From: Arcobacteraceae bacterium
GTDB lineage: Bacteria; Campylobacterota; Campylobacteria; Campylobacterales; Arcobacteraceae
DNA: 64,000 nucleotides
Assembly: GCA_021107755.1 (NCBI GenBank)
Contig: JAIOSF010000026.1
Location: 1 to 64,000 of the forward strand
Direction of reading: 5' to 3'
Shown: piece by piece, positions 2,345-19,770 of the stretch
Position numbering within the stretch: position 1 is the first letter of the stretch
Layout of the letters: the number at the start of each line of letters is the position of its first letter
The notes under the pieces: model-generated
Told to the model about the DNA's origin: nothing
Seen by the model: the letters and a program-made list of their open reading frames with translations, nothing else
Database searches by the model: none
Program-made: the position numbers and the translations under genes

Positions 2345-2659
2345 ATGAAAAAATTATTAGCATCACTTGTAGTGATGGCAGCGTTTGTTGGATTTGGAAT
2401 TACTAGTCTAAATGCATCTGTTATAAAAGATGGTATTGTGTTAGCATCAAATGATAAGTGTGGTGGTTCAAAATGTGGTGCATCAACTAAGTGTGGTGGT
2501 GAAAAAGAGGAAAAGAAGTATGGTGAAGGGAAATGTGGAGAAGAGAAAAAAAGCTCTAAATGTGGTAGTTCAAAATGTGGATCATCAGATAAATGTGGTG
2601 GTGAAAAAAAAGATAAGCCTGTAAAAAGTTCTTGCGGAACAGGTAAATGTGGTTCTTAA
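2345..2659 (+). CDS. secreted KCG-repeat peptide with EGKCG motif (bufferin/HvfA-like)
   Basis: The 104-residue product has a clear signal peptide (about residues 1-24) and then a Lys/Glu/Ser-rich tail. The tail holds eight KCG triplets plus one SCG, and no other fold is visible. One copy is EGKCG, the motif modified to oxazolone/thioamide-type copper ligands in HvfA-type bufferins. In those systems a DUF692 enzyme and a DUF2063 partner sit beside the peptide gene, and neither is present here. The ribosome site AAAAGGAAG lies just before the ATG, and a TATAAT at 2306-2311 could be the promoter. The likely role is extracytoplasmic binding of copper or another thiophilic metal. It could also be an unmodified Cys-rich peptide. 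Confidence 0.7.
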   Translation: MKKLLASLVVMAAFVGFGITSLNASVIKDGIVLASNDKCGGSKCGASTKCGGEKEEKKYGEGKCGEEKKSSKCGSSKCGSSDKCGGEKKDKPVKSSCGTGKCGS

Positions 2660-2854: not shown

Positions 2855-3853
<999 letters not shown>

Positions 3854-3880: not shown

Positions 3881-3900
3881 CTTGAGGTCAATACCTCAAG
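3881..3900 (+). other. intercistronic hairpin after nifH
   Basis: CTTGAGGT and ACCTCAAG form a perfect 8-bp stem with the loop CAAT, 28 bases after the nifH stop. There is no T-run, so termination is unlikely. Hairpins here often mark the 3' end of stable nifH transcripts, and that role is inferred. Confidence 0.6.
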
Positions 3901-3955
3901 TATAAAACAAAAAATTAATAAACAAAATAAAAAATAAAAACAATAGGAGAAAATT

Positions 3956-4315
3956 ATGTTTGTATGTGGTTATCATTTTCCAGCGAGTGAAGGAAACGAT
4001 GTATCTTTTGATAAAGTTATAGAAAAAGTAAGTGAAGGTATTGATTCAACAGGTAAAACTGTTACATTAACAAGTGAAACAAGAGAAGGTGTTCAATTAG
4101 AAACATTAGAAGTACCAGCAGGTACATTTGCACACACTGCATTTGTAGATTATTACACAAATACAGAAGTTGCTGAAAAAGATGGTTTAAAAATGATTTA
4201 TTATACAAATAAATACCAAATTTCTGAAATTTCTAAATCTGTAGATGGTGCAGTTACAAAAGATTTATGTAAAAAATTAGATGATATGAATCTATACAGA
4301 GTAAAAGTAGCATAA
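3956..4315 (+). CDS. unknown 119-aa protein between nifH and nifD
   Basis: I do not recognise this protein. It is soluble, with no signal peptide or membrane segment, and has only two cysteines (MFVCGYHF at the start and DLCKKL near the end). It appears to be mainly beta strand with a C-terminal helix. A good ribosome site, AATAGGAGAA, precedes the ATG. It sits between nifH and nifD in the same orientation, so it is made with nitrogenase. It is not AnfG/VnfG: NifD is of the Mo type and the sequence is unlike those delta subunits. It also shows no likeness to CowN or to the Shethna FeSII ferredoxin, which has four cysteines. A nitrogenase-associated or protective role is only inferred from position. 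Confidence 0.85.
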   Translation: MFVCGYHFPASEGNDVSFDKVIEKVSEGIDSTGKTVTLTSETREGVQLETLEVPAGTFAHTAFVDYYTNTEVAEKDGLKMIYYTNKYQISEISKSVDGAVTKDLCKKLDDMNLYRVKVA

Positions 4316-4437
4316 AAAGGTTTAGAATAGCAATTCTTTCATACGATTTCGGCGTTGAGGACTCGTCATTTACTCTAAGTAAACTTCCTCATCCTCGCCT
4401 TGAACTCGAATGAAATAATCACCATTCAAAACCTTTT
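4315..4437. repeat. large imperfect inverted repeat between orf119 and nifD
   Basis: The outer arms AAAAGGTTTAGAA and TTCAAAACCTTTT pair at 12 of 13 positions. Inside them, the stretch from TTTCATACGA to TCGAATGAAA folds on itself with interruptions. The apex is TTTACT-CTA-AGTAAA. The whole non-coding gap therefore forms one long hairpin of about 120 bases. It is far more GC-rich and structured than its surroundings, which fits either a dispersed REP-like element or an RNA processing/attenuation site controlling nifDK. Confidence 0.75.
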
Positions 4438-4469
4438 GATTAAATTAAAATAAAAGCAAAAGGAAAGTT

Positions 4470-5936
4470 ATGGCAAACGAAGAATTAGAAGCTTTACAAA
4501 AAGAAGCTATAGAAGAGGTACTGTCTGTTTACCCTGCAAAAGCTGCAAAAAACAGAGCAAAGCATTTAGGTGTTGATACTCCAGAGGGTGTAAAAGGTGC
4601 TTGTGATAAAACTAGATCAAATAAACAAACAGTTCCAGGTGTAATGTCTCAAAGAGGTTGTGCGTACGCAGGTTCTAAGGGTGTTGTATGGGGACCAATT
4701 AAAGATATGATTCATATTTCTCATGGACCAGTAGGTTGTGGACAATATTCAAGAGCGGGTAGAAGAAACTACTATATCGGTACAACAGGTGTTGATACAT
4801 TTGTTACAATGAACTTCACAACAGATTTTTCTGAGAATGACATTGTATTTGGTGGGGATATTAAACTTAAAAAAGCTCTTGGTGAGATTGATGAGTTATT
4901 TCCATTAAATAATGGTATATCTATTCAATCTGAGTGTCCAATTGGTTTAATTGGTGATGATATTCAAGCTGTTGCAAAAGTACATAAAAAAGAATCTGAC
5001 AAACCAACAATTGCTGTTTCATGTGAAGGGTTTAGAGGGGTTTCTCAGTCGTTGGGGCACCACATAGCTAATGATATGATCAGAGATGAAGTTATGCCAG
5101 ATGCAAGTCATAGACAAAACTTTGAATCTACAGATTTTGATGTAGCTATTATTGGGGATTACAACATCGGTGGTGATGCTTGGGCTTCAAGAATATTACT
5201 AGAAGAGATGGGATTAAGAGTTATTGCTCAATGGTCTGGAGATGCTACTTATAAAGAGATGGCAATCGCACCAAAAGCAAAACTTAACTTACTTCACTGT
5301 TATAGATCAATGAACTATATCTCAAGACATATGGAACAAGAGTTCGGTATACCTTGGATGGAATATAACTTCTTTGGACCAAGTAAAACAACAGAGTCTT
5401 TAAGAAAAATTGCTGAGTTCTTTGGACCAGAAGTTCAAGAAAAAACAGAAGCAGTTATAGCTAAATATACAAAAATGACTGACGAAGTTATTGCTAAATA
5501 TAGACCTAAATTAGAGGGTAAAAAAGTAATGCTATATGTTGGTGGATTAAGACCAAGACATGTTATTGGTGCTTATGAAGATTTAGGTATGGAAGTTATC
5601 GGTACTGGATATGAGTTCGGTCACGGTGATGATTATAAAAGAACAAAAGAAGATTTAGGAAGAGCTACATTAATTTATGATGATGTTAATGAGTACGAAC
5701 TAGAAGCTTTCGTTAAAAAATTAAAACCAGATTTAGTTGCATCTGGAGTTAAAGAGAAATATGTATTCCAAAAAATGGGTCTACCATTTAGACAAATGCA
5801 CTCTTGGGATTACTCTGGACCATACCATGGTTATGATGCATTCGCAATTTTTGCAAAAGATATGGACTTAGCTATGAACTCACCAGTTTGGAGTCATACA
5901 AAAGCACCATGGGATAAAGAAGAGGTAGGAGCTTAA
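4470..5936 (+). CDS. nifD: nitrogenase molybdenum-iron protein alpha chain
   Basis: NifD carries the FeMo-cofactor and shares the P-cluster with NifK. The cofactor-ligating cysteine is visible in [10 protein letters not shown], and the ligating histidine in [17 protein letters not shown]. These flanking sequences are typical of Mo-dependent enzymes rather than VnfD or AnfD. P-cluster cysteines appear in [11 protein letters not shown] and [11 protein letters not shown]. The length, 488 residues, is normal. AAAAGGAAAG precedes the start. nifK follows after a single base, so the two are translationally coupled. Confidence 0.98.
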
Positions 5937-5937
5937 T

Positions 5938-7485
5938 ATGCAAGACGTAAATAATATAGTAAACGGACAAAAGCTGTTCTTAAAAGAAGATTACCAAGCT
6001 TCTTTAGCAGCAAAAAAAGAGTTTGAAGGTTCAATGGGTTCAATTAATCCTGCGAAAGTTGAAGAAGTTGCTGAGTGGACTAAATCTTGGGATTATAGAG
6101 AGAAAAACTTAGCAAGAGAAGCTATTACAGTTAACCCTGCTAAAGCTTGTCAACCACTTGGAGCTATTATGGCTGCACTTGGATTTGAAAATACAATGCC
6201 TTATGTACATGGAAGTCACGGATGTGTTGCATACTTTAGATCGTACTTTACAAGACACTTTAAAGAACCAACACCATGTGTATCTGATAGTATGTCAGAA
6301 TCTGCAGCGGTATTTGGTGGATTAGCAAATATGAAAGATGGTTTAAGAAACTGTAACGCAATGTACAAACCAGAAATGATAGCTGTATCTACAACTTGTA
6401 TGGCAGAAGTTATCGGAGATGATTTAGGTGCATTTATCATTGGTGCTAGAGATGAAGCAGAAGGAGAACTAGATGCTTTACCAATAACTTATGCTCATAC
6501 TCCATCATTTGTTGGGTCACATATTACAGGTTATGATAATATGATGAAAGGTATGCTTGAGCAATTAAGTATAGGAAAAGAGAACAGAGTTGTTGAAGAG
6601 GGAAGAATTAATATTATCCCTGGTTTTGAACCTTACCTTGGATCTTTAGCAGAAGTTAAAGAGATTGCTGCATCATTTTCTGACAAAATTGTAATGTTAG
6701 GTGATCATGAAGAGCAATGGAATACAGGTGCTGGTGGATATAGTTTATATGCTGGTGGTACACCATTAGAAGTTGCTAAAACAGCTATAAATGCAGAGAC
6801 TACAATCTCTTTACAAAAATATTCTACAGTGCAAACTGCTAAGACTATTAAAAATAAATGGAAACAAGGTTTTGAAACTTGTAATCCAATAGGACTTGCT
6901 GGTACAGATGAATTCGTAATGAAATTAGCTGAACTTACAGGTAAAGAAGTTCCAGAGTCGTTAAAAACTCAAAGAGCTCAACTTGTTGATGCAATGCAAG
7001 ATTCTTACCCATATATGCATGGTAAAAAGTTTGCAATCTATGGTGATCCAGATTTCTTATTAGGTCTTGTTGCATTTATCGTTGAAATGGGTGGTATCCC
7101 AACTCATGTATTATGTCACAATGCTCCAAGGAAAGGTTGGGAAGCAGATATGCAAGCAATCATAGACAAATCTGATTGGGCAAGTGATTGTCAAATCTGG
7201 GCTGGTAAAGATTTATGGCACTTAAGATCATTATTATTTACAGAGCCAGTAGATTTCTTAATCGGTAATGTTTACGGTAAAGAATTATACAGAGATACAA
7301 AAATACCTTTAATCAGAATTGGTTTCCCAATTTTTGATAGACATCACTTACATAGATACTCTATGAGTGGTTACAAAGGTGCTTTAAATCTATTAACATG
7401 GATTACAAACTCTGTTCTAGACGAACTAGATGAAGAGACAAAAGATATAGCTAAAACAGATTATTTCTTTGATTGTGTGAGATAA
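5938..7485 (+). CDS. nifK: nitrogenase molybdenum-iron protein beta chain
   Basis: NifK pairs with NifD in the alpha2-beta2 MoFe protein and supplies half of the P-cluster ligands. The expected cysteines are in KACQPLGA, GSHGCVAYFR and STTCMAEVIGDD. The length, 515 residues, is typical. The gene starts one base after the nifD stop and ends the operon at a strong intrinsic terminator. nifE, nifN and nifB are not in this window and must lie elsewhere. Confidence 0.98.
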   Translation: MQDVNNIVNGQKLFLKEDYQASLAAKKEFEGSMGSINPAKVEEVAEWTKSWDYREKNLAREAITVNPAKACQPLGAIMAALGFENTMPYVHGSHGCVAYFRSYFTRHFKEPTPCVSDSMSESAAVFGGLANMKDGLRNCNAMYKPEMIAVSTTCMAEVIGDDLGAFIIGARDEAEGELDALPITYAHTPSFVGSHITGYDNMMKGMLEQLSIGKENRVVEEGRINIIPGFEPYLGSLAEVKEIAASFSDKIVMLGDHEEQWNTGAGGYSLYAGGTPLEVAKTAINAETTISLQKYSTVQTAKTIKNKWKQGFETCNPIGLAGTDEFVMKLAELTGKEVPESLKTQRAQLVDAMQDSYPYMHGKKFAIYGDPDFLLGLVAFIVEMGGIPTHVLCHNAPRKGWEADMQAIIDKSDWASDCQIWAGKDLWHLRSLLFTEPVDFLIGNVYGKELYRDTKIPLIRIGFPIFDRHHLHRYSMSGYKGALNLLTWITNSVLDELDEETKDIAKTDYFFDCVR

Positions 7486-7649: not shown

Positions 7650-8432
7650 GTGGAATTTTCATCATCTTTAACAATCTTTAACAGCGATACGCCACTTTTA
7701 TTGGAAAAACGAATTAAGCTTATAGGCTATATAGAGATAGAAGGATCTATAAGTAAAGCAGCCAAAAAAGTACCCATGAGCTATAAAGCTGCATGGGATG
7801 CTATCGATGCCATAAACAACCTTTGCCCAACAACAGTTGTAGAAAAATCTACAGGTGGTGTTGGAGGAGGCGGAGCTGTAGTAACACCTTATGGTAAAAA
7901 CTTAATTAAAACATATTCGACGCTTAAAAAAGAACATGAAAAGTTTTTATCACAATTGACAAAGATGACAGATTTTAACACAGGAGCCCTTAAATCTTTA
8001 GAAAGGTTTTCGATGCAAATAAGTGCAAGAAATCAAGTTCAAGGTATAGTTGAACATATTGAACAAGGAAAAGTAAATTCTTCAGTGTATTTAAAATTAA
8101 AAAGTGGTTACACCTTAGTAAGTGTTATTACAAATGGGGCTATTGATAATTTAAATTTACAAATAGAAGATGAAGTGGTTGCTATATTTAAATCAAGTTC
8201 AGTTCTCCTTACAACAGATTTGAGTTTAAATATTAGTGCTAGAAATAAATTCCAAGGTACTATAACTGATATTAGTTTAGGTGAGATAAATAGTGAAGTT
8301 CTAGTTGATATTGGTAATGGAGATAAAATCGCCTCTGTTATTACGAAAAATGCCACAGGGAGTTTAGATTTGAAAGTTGGTGATAGTGTAAGTGCTATTA
8401 TAAAATCATCTGATGTGATGATAGGAAAATAA
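7650..8432 (+). CDS. modE: molybdate-responsive regulator ModE
   Basis: ModE is a DNA-binding molybdate sensor. Residues 1-110 form the winged helix domain (GSISKAAKKVPMSYKAAWDAI, then the glycine-rich GGVGGGGA wing). They are followed by two molbindin (TOBE) repeats, each beginning with an ISARN motif near residues 128 and 195. The total of 260 residues is the full-length form. The start is GTG at 7650 with AAGGA seven bases before it; the ATG at 7648 is out of frame. The gene heads the mod operon and is followed by modA 10 bases later. It probably also affects nif or nap genes, but no other operator was found. Confidence 0.93.
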   Translation: MEFSSSLTIFNSDTPLLLEKRIKLIGYIEIEGSISKAAKKVPMSYKAAWDAIDAINNLCPTTVVEKSTGGVGGGGAVVTPYGKNLIKTYSTLKKEHEKFLSQLTKMTDFNTGALKSLERFSMQISARNQVQGIVEHIEQGKVNSSVYLKLKSGYTLVSVITNGAIDNLNLQIEDEVVAIFKSSSVLLTTDLSLNISARNKFQGTITDISLGEINSEVLVDIGNGDKIASVITKNATGSLDLKVGDSVSAIIKSSDVMIGK

Positions 8433-8442
8433 AGGGATAAGA

Positions 8443-9192
8443 ATGTTAAAGAAGTTATTGATTGGAAGTTTATTATTTGTTGGATCTTTATATGCTGGAA
8501 CTATTAATATTGCAGTTGCTGCCAATGTAAGTTATGCTATTGATGATTTAAAAAAAGAGTTTAATAAACTCTATCCAAATACAGAGGTTAAAGTTACACT
8601 TGGAAGTAGTGGTAAACTAACTGCTCAAATTAAAAATGGAGCACCATATCAGTTGTTTATGGCTGCAAATATGAAATATCCACAAGCTTTATATGCTGAT
8701 GGGATTGCTACAACTAGACCACTTGTTTATGCTCAAGGAAGTCTTGCATACTTAAGTAGTAAAAAACAAAATTTTTCAAAAGGTATAAAACTTGTTGAAA
8801 ACTCAAAAATATCTAAAATAGCAGTAGCAAATCCAAAAACTGCACCTTATGGAAAAGCTGCAGTTGAAGCTATGAAAAATGGTGGAGTATATGATAAAGT
8901 AGTAGGAAAATATGTCTATGCTGAATCTATCTCTCAAACTGTTTCTTATGCTGTAACTGCTGCTGATATAGGTTTTATTGCTAAATCTTCACTTTATAGT
9001 CCTAAAATGTCTGCTTATAAAAAAGGTATTAATTGGGCTGATGTAGATCCAAAACTTTACACACCAATTAATCAAGGTATTGTAGTACTTAAAAATGGTG
9101 AAGCAAATAGTGAAGTAGCTGCATTTTATACATTTATGTTAAGTGCAAAAGCAAAAAAAATATTAAATGACTTTGGATATTTAGTACCATGA
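8443..9192 (+). CDS. modA: molybdate ABC transporter substrate-binding protein
   Basis: ModA captures molybdate in the periplasm and delivers it to ModB. A signal peptide covers about residues 1-18 (LLIGSLLFVGSLYAG). The mature protein starts with the family's INIAVAANV segment and has LGSSGKLTAQI, which contributes oxyanion-binding serines, and APYGKAAVEAM. The length, 249 residues, is normal. The gene overlaps the next gene by four bases (ATGA). Confidence 0.95.
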   Translation: MLKKLLIGSLLFVGSLYAGTINIAVAANVSYAIDDLKKEFNKLYPNTEVKVTLGSSGKLTAQIKNGAPYQLFMAANMKYPQALYADGIATTRPLVYAQGSLAYLSSKKQNFSKGIKLVENSKISKIAVANPKTAPYGKAAVEAMKNGGVYDKVVGKYVYAESISQTVSYAVTAADIGFIAKSSLYSPKMSAYKKGINWADVDPKLYTPINQGIVVLKNGEANSEVAAFYTFMLSAKAKKILNDFGYLVP

Positions 9193-9587
9193 GTAGTTTA
9201 ATAGCAACTGTAACACAAATAGATTATTGTGATAGTTTGCATATAGTAAAGTTTGATTGTCATAATCAAACTTTATCTATGATGAGTTTAGATTTAACTG
9301 ATGCTATCCAAGTTGGTACAAAAGTAAAACTTGTAATCAAACCATCTCATATAGCAATTGCAAAAGATTTTAGTGGAGAGGTGAGTTATTCAAATCAACT
9401 TAAAACTACTATTAAATCGTGCACAAATGGACAACTCTTAAGTAGTGTGAAATTAGATTTCTTTGATACTACTTTGGAGTCAATTATCACACTAAACTCA
9501 TCGCAAAAAATGGGCTTAAAAGTAGGGGATCAAGTAACTGCCTTTATAAAAGCTAGTGAGATATCAATAGGTGAGGTTTTAGGATGA
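9189..9587 (+). CDS. di-TOBE molbindin-like protein
   Basis: The 132-residue protein consists of two TOBE (Mop) domains in tandem, roughly residues 1-65 and 66-130. Each ends in an [AF]IK-type strand ([10 protein letters not shown] and [11 protein letters not shown]). Such molbindins store or buffer molybdate in the cytoplasm. The ISARN motif is degenerate in both halves, so oxyanion affinity may differ from ModE. It overlaps modA and modB by four bases each, so it is tightly coupled to the transporter. Confidence 0.85.
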
Positions 9588-10276
9588 TTGAAATATTTAC
9601 TAACTTAGAGTTTGAACCTTTTTTGCTCTCTTTTAAATTAGCAGGAATCACTACATTGATACTTTTTGTTTTTAGTGTACCATTAGCTTGGTATTTATCT
9701 CAAACAAAGTCAAAGATGAAACCATTTTGGGAAAGTTTAACAGCATTGCCTATTGTACTGCCACCTTCTGTTTTAGGTTTTTATATCCTTGTAGCATTAT
9801 CTCACAATTCACCTATAGGGGTGTTTTTTGAGGATATGTTTGGGATAAAACTTGTTTTTAACTTCACAGGACTTGTGGTTGCAAGTTGTTTTTATAGTTT
9901 ACCTTTTATGGTACAACCTTTGCAAAGTGGTTTTGAATCTATCAATAAAAATATGTTAGAAGCTAGTTATATAAGTGGGAAAGGGAAATGTGAGACTATA
10001 ATTAAAGTTGCATTACCAAATATAAAACCAGCTTTGATGACAGCAATTATTGTAACTTTTGCCCATACAGTTGGAGAGTTTGGGGTTGTTTTAATGGTAG
10101 GTGGAAGTATCCCTGGGGAGACAAAAGTAGCTTCAGTTGCTATATATGAGTTTGTTGAAGTTATGGACTATACACATGCACACATTTATAGTGCTATTAT
10201 GGTTGTTATTAGTTTTCTTGTATTATTGAGTGTATATATTTTTAATGGTAAACAAAATAAAAAATTTGGAATATAA
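9584..10276 (+). CDS. modB: molybdate ABC transporter permease
   Basis: ModB forms the membrane channel of the molybdate importer. It has about five to six hydrophobic segments and the ABC permease EAA loop ([22 protein letters not shown]), which docks onto ModC. The length, 230 residues, is typical. It overlaps mop and is separated from its ATPase by two genes not usually found in mod operons. Confidence 0.95.
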
Positions 10277-10278
10277 AG

Positions 10279-10821
10279 ATGAAAAAAAAGATTATAGAGA
10301 GATATGATGTAAGTGATAATGGAGAAGTTATTATTAAAATATCAGCAAAAAAAGTTGAAGATTTATATAATGAATATGATAAAAAATCATCTTTTTCAAA
10401 AAAAGATTTAGATCAAGAGCTTGTAGAATATATCATAGAAAGTGTAAATGAAATAGGGAAAGAACCTTTTTCTCTTAAGTTTTATTTAGAAGATCAGATA
10501 CCTAAAGGGCTTCAAGAAAAGGTACGAAATAGTATTAAACTATATTTTTCTTATTTGCAAGATTTAGAGAAAAAAAAGATGAAAGAACAAGTGAAAAATA
10601 GTTTTATATTTATCATTATAGGGTTGTTTTTTACTACTTGTTCACTTCTTAGTGGTGATAGTGAAAGTTTTATTGTCAAAATTTTATCAGAGGGGATGCT
10701 AGTTGCTGGATGGGTTTCTTTGTGGGAAGCATTAGCTACGCTTCTTATAAAATGGTTACCACTAACTAAAAAACTAAAAACTTTTACGAGAGTTTTTAAT
10801 TGTGATGTTGAGTTTGCATAA
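10279..10821 (+). CDS. unknown 180-aa membrane protein in the mod operon
   Basis: I do not recognise this family. The first 110 residues are charged and Lys/Glu-rich, probably cytoplasmic. They are followed by two hydrophobic segments at about 110-128 and 135-158 and a short basic tail. It starts three bases after modB and shares its operon, so it may be linked to molybdate handling, but nothing in the sequence says how. Confidence 0.75.
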   Translation: MKKKIIERYDVSDNGEVIIKISAKKVEDLYNEYDKKSSFSKKDLDQELVEYIIESVNEIGKEPFSLKFYLEDQIPKGLQEKVRNSIKLYFSYLQDLEKKKMKEQVKNSFIFIIIGLFFTTCSLLSGDSESFIVKILSEGMLVAGWVSLWEALATLLIKWLPLTKKLKTFTRVFNCDVEFA

Positions 10822-10845
10822 ATATCTTTATAAAGGGAGAATAAA

Positions 10846-11193
10846 ATGAAAAAAGAAAATTTATTAATAATTGTTTCAACTAATAATGTTGATTCTATAT
10901 TAAAATTTCCACTTTTATATGGTGGAGTATCAATACCTAGGGGATATTGGAAACGAGTACATATTATATTTTGGGGAGCTTCTATTAAAGTGGTTCAAAC
11001 AAATGTAGATATAAGAAAAAAGGTTCAAGAGATGCAAAAAGATGGTGTGGAGTTTAGTTCTTGCATAGTTTGTGCTCAAGAATATAATGCAGTAGAAGAA
11101 CTAGAAAATATAGGGATACCTTGTAATCATACAGGGGAACTTTTAAATGAAGCTTTACAAAATGATAAATTATGGGCAACCTTAACGGTATAA
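10846..11193 (+). CDS. DsrE-like small protein in the mod operon
   Basis: The 115-residue protein resembles DsrE/DsrF-type sulfur-relay folds: an N-terminal LLIIVSTNNVDSILKFPLLY strand-helix, a central VHIIFWGAS segment, and a later VQEMQKDGVEF...CIVCAQEY. The two cysteines of CIVC are where catalytic cysteines lie in related proteins. AAAGGGAG precedes the ATG. A role in sulfur transfer to molybdenum or iron-sulfur centres is possible but inferred. Confidence 0.65.
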   Translation: MKKENLLIIVSTNNVDSILKFPLLYGGVSIPRGYWKRVHIIFWGASIKVVQTNVDIRKKVQEMQKDGVEFSSCIVCAQEYNAVEELENIGIPCNHTGELLNEALQNDKLWATLTV

Positions 11194-11196
11194 AAT

Positions 11197-12054
11197 ATGA
11201 TAAAAATAGATATAAATAAAAAACTACATGGTGCAAATGGGGAGATGGATTTAGTTGTTAATCTTGATATAGCTCAAGGTGATTTTGTAGCACTAGCAGG
11301 GCAAAGTGGTAGTGGAAAAACTACGCTTTTGCGTATTCTAGCAGGTTTAGAAGATGCTAGTGGAACTATACAAGTTGGTGAAGAGATTTGGCTGGAGGGT
11401 AAAAAAGCACTCCCATCTCAAAAAAGAAAGATTGGATTTGTCTTTCAAGATTATGCACTTTTCCCTAATATGAGTGTAGAAGAAAATTTATTATTTGTTC
11501 AAAAAGATAAAGAGTTGGCTTCCAAACTATTAGAGCTAACAGAGCTTAGTGAATTAAGAGATAGATTGCCAAATACTCTTAGTGGTGGACAAAAGCAAAG
11601 GGTAAGTTTATGTCGTGCCATGATGAATAAGCCAAAACTACTTCTTATGGATGAACCACTCTCAGCTCTTGACCCTATTATGAGAACAAAACTGCAACAA
11701 GAGATATTGACACTGCATAAAGAGTTTGGAACTACAACAATTATGGTAAGTCATGACCCAAGTGAGATATATAGATTAGCTTCAAGAGTTATAGTATTAA
11801 ACTTTGGTGAGATTATCAATGACGGAACACCAAAAGATGTATTGCTTAAAACAAGTGGAAGTCAAAAATTTTCTTTTGAGGGGGAGTTATTGGATATTGT
11901 AAAAGTAGATGTGATAAATATTGCAATAGTTTCAATTGGTCAACAATTGGTTGAAGTTGTAGTAAGTGATGATGAAGTAAAGAGTTTAAGCATAGGACAA
12001 AGCGTGAGTGTAAGTACAAAAGCATTTACCCCAATGATTCAAGGGCTACAATAA
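11197..12054 (+). CDS. modC: molybdate ABC transporter ATP-binding protein
   Basis: ModC powers molybdate import. Visible motifs are Walker A GQSGSGKTT, Q-loop FVFQDYALFPN, the signature LSGGQKQR, Walker B LLLMDEPLSALD, and H-loop VSHDPSE. After about residue 215 there is a C-terminal TOBE domain. The length, 285 residues, is short for ModC (about 350), because only one TOBE unit is present. The separate molbindin gene may make up for this. The gene ends the operon at a strong terminator. Confidence 0.93.
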   Translation: MIKIDINKKLHGANGEMDLVVNLDIAQGDFVALAGQSGSGKTTLLRILAGLEDASGTIQVGEEIWLEGKKALPSQKRKIGFVFQDYALFPNMSVEENLLFVQKDKELASKLLELTELSELRDRLPNTLSGGQKQRVSLCRAMMNKPKLLLMDEPLSALDPIMRTKLQQEILTLHKEFGTTTIMVSHDPSEIYRLASRVIVLNFGEIINDGTPKDVLLKTSGSQKFSFEGELLDIVKVDVINIAIVSIGQQLVEVVVSDDEVKSLSIGQSVSVSTKAFTPMIQGLQ

Positions 12055-18249: not shown

Positions 18250-19770
18250 ATGAATAGTGAAGATAGTTTGATACAAATAGAACTTAATGTTTTACAAGAT
18301 ATAGCTACAATAATAGCCGATTCAAGAGGACAAATAGTAGAGTCTTTAGAGAAGTGTCTAAAAATACTCAAAAAAAATCTTGATTTAGAAAATTGTGTTA
18401 TATATAAATTAGAAGATGATATGTTAAACATATTTGCTTCTATAGATTTTAATAAGCACCAAAAAATTATATCAGAATATAGACTAGGTGAGGGTGCTAC
18501 AGGTTTAGCTGCAAAGAGTATGGAACCTGTTGTTATTGAAAATGTACATAATGATATATTATTTTTAAATAAATCTGGAAATAGAAGTAGTGATACTATT
18601 TCATATATCGCAGTTCCTATGATTGTAGAACATGAAACAATTGGTGTGTTAGCAACTAATCTTACAAAATCTACAAAAATAGACTTTGATGATACTGTGA
18701 GAATACTATCAATTATTAGTTCTTTATTTGCTCAAAGTATGTATTCACATTTTGTCTTAGAAGATGAGAAAGAGAAGTTAAAAGATCTTAAACAGTATTA
18801 TAAAATGGAGTGGGATTCAAAAGTGCATAATTTTGGTGACATAATTGGCGAGAGTAAGAAGATGAAGGATGTCTATAGAGTTATTGAGCGAATTGCGCAA
18901 AGTGATGTGACTATTCTTGTGAGAGGTGAAACTGGAACTGGTAAAGAACTAGTAGCAGCTGCAATACATAAAAGAAGTCGCAGAGCAGAAGAGCCATTTG
19001 TAAAATTAAACTGTGCAGCTATAACTGATAGTTTACTAGAAAGTGAGCTATTTGGACATGAAAAAGGTGCATTTACAGATGCTAAAGAGACTAGAAAAGG
19101 GCGATTTGAGCTTGCAGATAAGGGGACTTTATTTTTAGATGAGATAGGGGATATTAGTGCGAGTGCTCAAGTAAAATTACTAAGAGTTTTACAAGAAAGA
19201 GAGTTTGAACGAGTTGGTGGAAGCAAAACTATCAAAGTCAATGTAAGACTAGTGGCTGCAACAAATCGAAATCTTGAACAGATGGTAAAAGATGGAGAGT
19301 TTAGAGAAGATTTATATTATAGATTAAATGTTATACCAATAGATTTACCTCCATTGAGAAAAAGGGGTGAAGATATAAAACTTCTTGTAAACTTTTTTCT
19401 TGAAAGAGCTGTGAAAAACCATAAGAAGATGGTAACTATTACAGATGAGGCGATGGATAAACTTATGGGTTATCCTTGGCCTGGAAATGTAAGAGAGATG
19501 GAAAATACTATTGAGAGAATTGTATTGATGGGTGATGAAAAAGGTATAAATGCAGCAGATATGCTTCTACTCCTTCCAGCTTTAAAAAATGAAAAGTTAA
19601 TTGAAGAGTATAAAACAATTTCAATGGAAAATAGAACATTGGATGAGCTAGAGAAAGAAGCGATAGCAAAAGCACTCAAAGATTGTAGTAACAATCAATC
19701 AAAAGCAGCTGAGATGTTAGGGATAACAGTCAGACAAATAGGATATAAAGTGAAAAAATATGGAATCTGA
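18250..19770 (+). CDS. nifA: sigma54-dependent nif activator NifA
   Basis: The 506-residue protein has a GAF domain (about residues 20-175), an AAA+ domain (about 200-430; Walker A GETGTGKE, Walker B LFLDEIGD) and a C-terminal helix-turn-helix (NNQSKAAEMLGITVRQIGYK). It activates sigma54 RNA polymerase. The loop contacting sigma54 reads GAFTDA instead of the usual GAFTGA. The cysteine cluster that makes alpha-proteobacterial NifA oxygen-sensitive is absent from the linker, and no nifL is present. A TATAAT at 18214-18219 may be a housekeeping promoter. The neighbours nifT and seven sigma54 sites in the window support the NifA call over a generic activator. Confidence 0.9.
   Translation: MNSEDSLIQIELNVLQDIATIIADSRGQIVESLEKCLKILKKNLDLENCVIYKLEDDMLNIFASIDFNKHQKIISEYRLGEGATGLAAKSMEPVVIENVHNDILFLNKSGNRSSDTISYIAVPMIVEHETIGVLATNLTKSTKIDFDDTVRILSIISSLFAQSMYSHFVLEDEKEKLKDLKQYYKMEWDSKVHNFGDIIGESKKMKDVYRVIERIAQSDVTILVRGETGTGKELVAAAIHKRSRRAEEPFVKLNCAAITDSLLESELFGHEKGAFTDAKETRKGRFELADKGTLFLDEIGDISASAQVKLLRVLQEREFERVGGSKTIKVNVRLVAATNRNLEQMVKDGEFREDLYYRLNVIPIDLPPLRKRGEDIKLLVNFFLERAVKNHKKMVTITDEAMDKLMGYPWPGNVREMENTIERIVLMGDEKGINAADMLLLLPALKNEKLIEEYKTISMENRTLDELEKEAIAKALKDCSNNQSKAAEMLGITVRQIGYKVKKYGI

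Follow-up and report, generated by a model that had tools for sequence, protein, structure and literature searches.

The nif locus and the X gene

The window, by which we mean the whole 64-kb stretch of Arcobacteraceae DNA that was analyzed, carries a nitrogenase operon in which a gene for a protein of 119 aa lies between nifH and nifD. We refer to this protein by the working name X. The features of the locus are as follows:

2881..2896, + strand: sigma-54 (-24/-12) promoter-like site, TGGAAC-N5-GTGCA, just upstream of nifH (consensus match only)
2939..3853, + strand: nifH, Fe protein (Pfam Fer4_NifH, 2.3e-118)
3881..3900, + strand: small hairpin between nifH and X, CTTGAGGT..ACCTCAAG
3945..3949, + strand: strong ribosome binding site of X, AGGAG, 6 bases 5' of the ATG
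3956..4315, + strand: X ORF, 119 aa, ATG 3956, TAA 4315
3956..3997, + strand: X residues 1-14, N-terminal motif M-F-x-x-G-x-x-F-P-A-x-x-G-N (F2, G5, F8, P9 and G13 invariant in both clades)
4202..4300, + strand: X residues 83-115, conserved C-terminal region YxNxYQ..E.SK..D....T..LCkk.D.M (S93, D97 and M111 invariant)
4312..4440, + strand: strong hairpin between X and nifD, 39-nt arms, 79% complementary
4470..5936, + strand: nifD, MoFe protein alpha chain (TIGR01282, 1.2e-247, over cut-off)
5938..7485, + strand: nifK, MoFe protein beta chain (Pfam Oxidored_nitro, 9e-125, and DUF3364)
18250..19770, + strand: NifA-type sigma-54 activator (GAF, AAA+ and Fis HTH domains, Pfam)

The first-pass annotation had described an ORF of this length and position with a strong ribosome site, and both the coordinates and the AGGAG were confirmed. 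X starts 102 nt after the nifH stop and ends 154 nt before the nifD start. The sigma-54 consensus was matched a single time in the window, as compared to 0.10 matches expected by chance, and the NifA-type protein is likely to be the activator of the nifH promoter. Because the small hairpin in the nifH-X gap has no T run, it is no obvious terminator. Folding of the region around the hairpin between X and nifD (4316-4455) gave -33.6 kcal/mol with a z of -4.7, and this hairpin may set the ratio of NifH and X to NifDK. A repeated mobile element was ruled out, as the hairpin occurs in a single copy in the genome. The gaps in nifH-X-nifD of other loci also hold hairpin-like or repetitive sequence. 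On the two outer sides of the operon we noted a 104-aa Cys-rich protein just upstream of nifH (window 2345-2659), with a signal-like N terminus, CGxxKCG-type repeats and no Pfam match, and genes for molybdate regulation and transport (TOBE proteins, ABC transporter) directly 3' of nifK (window 7650-12054).

X is a small, mostly acidic protein of predicted alpha/beta fold, soluble by sequence and with no apparent signal peptide or membrane segment. In an alignment of 44 sequences the residues F2, G5, F8, P9, G13, V21, S93, D97 and M111 were invariant, and Y83, N85, Y87, Q88, E91, K94, C105 and D109 were retained in at least 90%. Each member has 1-3 Cys, only one of which is largely conserved over both clades of the family: C105 belongs to the retained residues, and C4 is lost in the divergent clade. 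Pairwise dN/dS was 0.02-0.16 (12 pairs) and substitutions fell mostly at third codon positions, thus X is under purifying selection. The ORF is a real gene; chance is excluded by homologues of 55-89% and of about 34-43% identity, by the third-position substitutions and by the conserved position.

Distribution of X and its linkage to NifD

A scan of species genomes with strict peptide patterns returned 40 X loci with 55-89% identity. All were campylobacterotal by title except one titled only 'bacterium', and the nif genes of that locus are of the same type as those of the campylobacterotal loci. The patterns were narrow enough to miss even a divergent campylobacterotal clade of X, which was recovered by a profile search of 397 Campylobacterota genomes. 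Rather than being present in one genome only, X was found in 73 of these. A broader profile (A2) returned the identical 73 genomes and otherwise chance-level matches; the weak ones, with E of about 1e-3 to 1e-2, lie inside long unrelated frames and were taken as chance. The gene order was nifH-X-nifD at every locus whose contig retains both flanks, which bears out conservation of the position in other Campylobacterota. At one locus (L039) only the end of X is on the contig and the nifH side is absent.

In the same sample 76 genomes had a NifD match above 1e-50. One of these matches (G368), with 298 bits only and about 29% identity to NifD, was taken to be NifE; with this genome set aside, X was present in 73 of 75 NifD genomes. 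No genome among the 397 had X without NifD, and in all 73 X genomes NifD was encoded on the same contig and strand, just downstream of X. The association with nitrogenase that the first-pass annotation had proposed is thereby upheld (Fisher p about 3e-78 for co-occurrence, a value that ignores relatedness). As for the two NifD genomes in which X was not found, the contig of one (G390) ends about 90 nt past the nifD match, so that its X status is not assessable. The other (G007) has two PII genes, nifI1 and nifI2, where X would be, and its NifD is divergent, with 645 bits, below cut-off. Its locus (L077 6240-9463) reads nifH-nifI1-nifI2-nifD, with no X and a NifD of 544 aa that has an insertion, and the family of this genome also includes X-bearing genomes with standard nif genes.

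X forms two deep clades that are spread over about 25 genera, are about 34-43% identical to each other and track NifH and NifD. Members of the divergent clade come from several families, are 34-43% identical to the X of the window and are also flanked by nifH and nifD; their NifD and NifH are 73-79% and 78-84% identical to those of the window. NifD of the first clade is 84-96% identical to the window's NifD. One genus (g22) holds both types of X (L050 and L051 versus L063-L067 and L075), each with its own type of NifD, which suggests that the nif operon, X included, moves as one piece. Across 69 loci, with several duplicates among them, X distances correlated with those of NifD (r 0.92) and NifH (r 0.91), a correlation that is expected within any operon and is not proof of contact. 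X evolves faster, as its mean distance was 0.42 versus 0.17 for NifD. In one genome (G224, L071 4232-7741) each of nifH, X, nifD and nifK is affected by small deletions or frameshifts, so that either the nif operon is decaying or the assembly is at fault. NifH and X are fused in frame in this genome, but this is unusable as evidence for a fusion since nifH, X and nifD all carry such lesions.

Outside the phylum, no X homologue was found in 72,556 plasmids, 247 of which carry NifD, in most cases 60-80% identical, and none was found in viral contigs. Methylococcus sp. EFPC2 has a NifD of 69% identity, and its nifH and nifD stand side by side with no annotated gene in between. X is likely confined to Campylobacterota. 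The open-access papers that were found are silent on any conserved campylobacterotal protein encoded between nifH and nifD; subscription literature lay outside the search and an earlier mention is possible. For a relative, the 'Zeitz' bacterium (L015), the published genome description lists the nif genes without X (PMC4674564). Taken together, X is probably a partner of campylobacterotal nitrogenase that nobody has studied.

Comparison with known families and folds

Searches of Pfam, NCBIfam, PHROG and PDB sequences gave nothing above chance for X, and hence no match to a family unrelated to nitrogenase. AlphaFold2 models, one for each clade, had mean pLDDT of 87.6 and 89.2 and predicted an alpha/beta domain that starts with short N-terminal strands and a helix, continues through a beta hairpin, a second helix and a short strand, and closes with a long (or split) helix and a final strand; the order is similar in the two models. 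For both models the best PDB fold match was the N-terminal domain of Pseudomonas DapD (PDB 3r5a-3r5d), with a best E of about 0.02-0.03, a probability of 0.95-0.99 and a TM-score of 0.38-0.46, which is weak, as E lies above 0.001 and TM below 0.5. DapD is a lysine-pathway enzyme of 340-400 aa, whereas X has 119 aa and no sequence similarity to it. Derivation of X from a DapD domain had no sequence support, as hhalign gave a probability of 0.4% with a DapD sequence that was checked against the PDB chain. We treat the resemblance as a weak fold lead without functional meaning. A BFVD match to an uncharacterised phage protein (E 3.7e-3) was uninformative, and the predicted fold of X gives no hint of function.

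The lack of likeness to AnfG, CowN and FeSII that the first-pass annotation had noted was borne out by family profiles, hhalign and Cys counts. Both X and the AnfG/VnfG delta subunit have about 115-120 aa, are encoded among nitrogenase structural genes and are likely co-made with them. The predicted alpha/beta protein X has, however, no similarity to AnfG/VnfG, no Pfam or NCBIfam match to it, and a negative hhalign comparison with the protein in the AnfG position of Sulfurospirillum cavolei. This species (G209; L085 2845-6209) has an anfDGK-like stretch without X, in which a separate 117-aa G protein lies between anfD and anfK, and its single X is in the Mo operon. Sulfurospirillum genomes in which additional NifD-like matches were read as an Fe-type nitrogenase likewise carry a single X, confined to the Mo operon. 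X is obligately linked to Mo-nif and is absent from the anf operon that was examined.

CowN is another small protein associated with nitrogenase (PMC8047169). X had no match to PF20543, and CowN matches sit elsewhere in the genomes: CowN is encoded in 26 of 42 genomes, a patchy distribution, and the window's genome has two CowN genes outside the nif operon (G000:C24:74952-75251 and G000:C29:13289-13582). FeSII, the Shethna protein, needs four Cys ligands for its 2Fe-2S cluster, and X was rejected as an FeSII on its 1-3 Cys and the loss of C4 in one clade. Among the 44 members no match to the FeMo-co-binding domain of NifX/NafY was found at E <= 1 in Pfam or NCBIfam, and X had no NCBIfam match to NifM (TIGR02933).

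NifI1 and NifI2 of the PII family are similar in size to X and occupy the same place in the operon, but they are two proteins where X is one, and there is no sequence similarity. None of the 44 members matched PF00543, hhalign with the NifI1-type protein of G007 was negative, and no PII structure was among the listed fold matches. Many X genomes encode another nif-linked PII paralogue elsewhere. A divergent PII paralogue of 133 aa (L080 1499-1900; L081 2056-2457, - strand) is nif-linked in several genomes, in a conserved cluster with NifX-like, flavodoxin-like and 2Fe-2S-ferredoxin-like proteins.

Possible roles of X

That X is a protective, assembly or regulatory partner, as the first-pass annotation had put forward, is still a proposal. 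As the second gene of the operon, X lies behind a sigma-54-type promoter and has its own strong ribosome site, so that protein levels on a par with those of NifH and NifDK would be expected. Such levels favor a partner that binds over a maturase that acts catalytically, and the best reading is that X may be a core, roughly stoichiometric partner of Mo nitrogenase. We suggest, as the reading we favor but hold only tentatively, that X could be a core accessory protein of campylobacterotal Mo nitrogenase. Made from one transcript with NifH and NifDK, X would bind nitrogenase component proteins, NifDK being favored, through its conserved N-terminal segment and C-terminal region, and would, wherever the MoFe protein is expressed, help to assemble, stabilize or gate it. 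High-level co-expression, physical binding, the preference for NifDK over NifH and the role in assembly or stability are what we infer here. In favor of a core role are the position of X, its obligate linkage, its restriction to the Mo operon where examined, its near-universal presence and the way in which nifH, X and nifD decay together in G224.

In clostridia and methanogens the genes that separate nifH from nifDK are nifI1-nifI2, which are regulatory and non-essential and not assembly factors (PMC4246453), and this speaks against a core role in assembly. They would instead be in line with X as a post-translational on/off switch that, like NifI1-NifI2, binds NifDK or NifH upon a change in fixed nitrogen or energy and blocks docking. 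The sole assessable NifD genome without X has nifI1-nifI2 exactly in its place, which leaves room for a gating role, and DraT was not found in 42 genomes, although no control genome gave a DraT match either. Since X is not a PII protein by profile, profile comparison or listed fold, and many X genomes have their other nif-linked PII paralogue, we regard a switch as an unlikely alternative. To the same low degree we would credit the idea that X is a true extra subunit (NifDKX), an independently evolved Mo counterpart of the V/Fe delta subunit.

Protection of nitrogenase from oxygen or another inhibitor, as by FeSII or CowN elsewhere, appears somewhat less probable still. Campylobacterota hosts of X are mostly microaerophilic and live at oxic-anoxic interfaces, and the operon position and likely co-expression of X would suit such a role. 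Its few Cys, only one of them largely conserved, speak against an FeSII-like Fe-S cluster, CowN is separately encoded, twice in this genome, and X is found in nearly all Mo-nif genomes regardless of lifestyle; the near-universal presence of X in Mo operons, set against the patchy one of CowN, makes a purely conditional protective role less likely. We give slightly less weight again to X as a maturation or stabilizing factor of the Fe protein in the stead of NifM. X lies directly behind nifH, and none of 31 genomes had a NifM above the curated cut-off; sub-threshold matches, which look like general peptidyl-prolyl isomerases, also occurred in control genomes. NifM is, however, dispensable for many diazotrophs, and X has no isomerase-like sequence match and is equally close to nifD. 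It is highly improbable that X plays no part in nitrogenase function and owes its place in the operon to historical accident, given its purifying selection and an obligate linkage that spans both deep clades and about 25 genera, with no case of X without NifD.

The genes of Mo nitrogenase are considered well mapped, and still the X family is absent from Pfam and NCBIfam. X is found almost as regularly as nifH and nifD across a phylum that matters at vents, in animal guts and in sulfidic sediments. If X is required, a heterologous campylobacterotal nitrogenase would need it, and if the favored core accessory protein stabilizes or gates NifDK, it would open a new way to study or control how nitrogenase is assembled or regulated.
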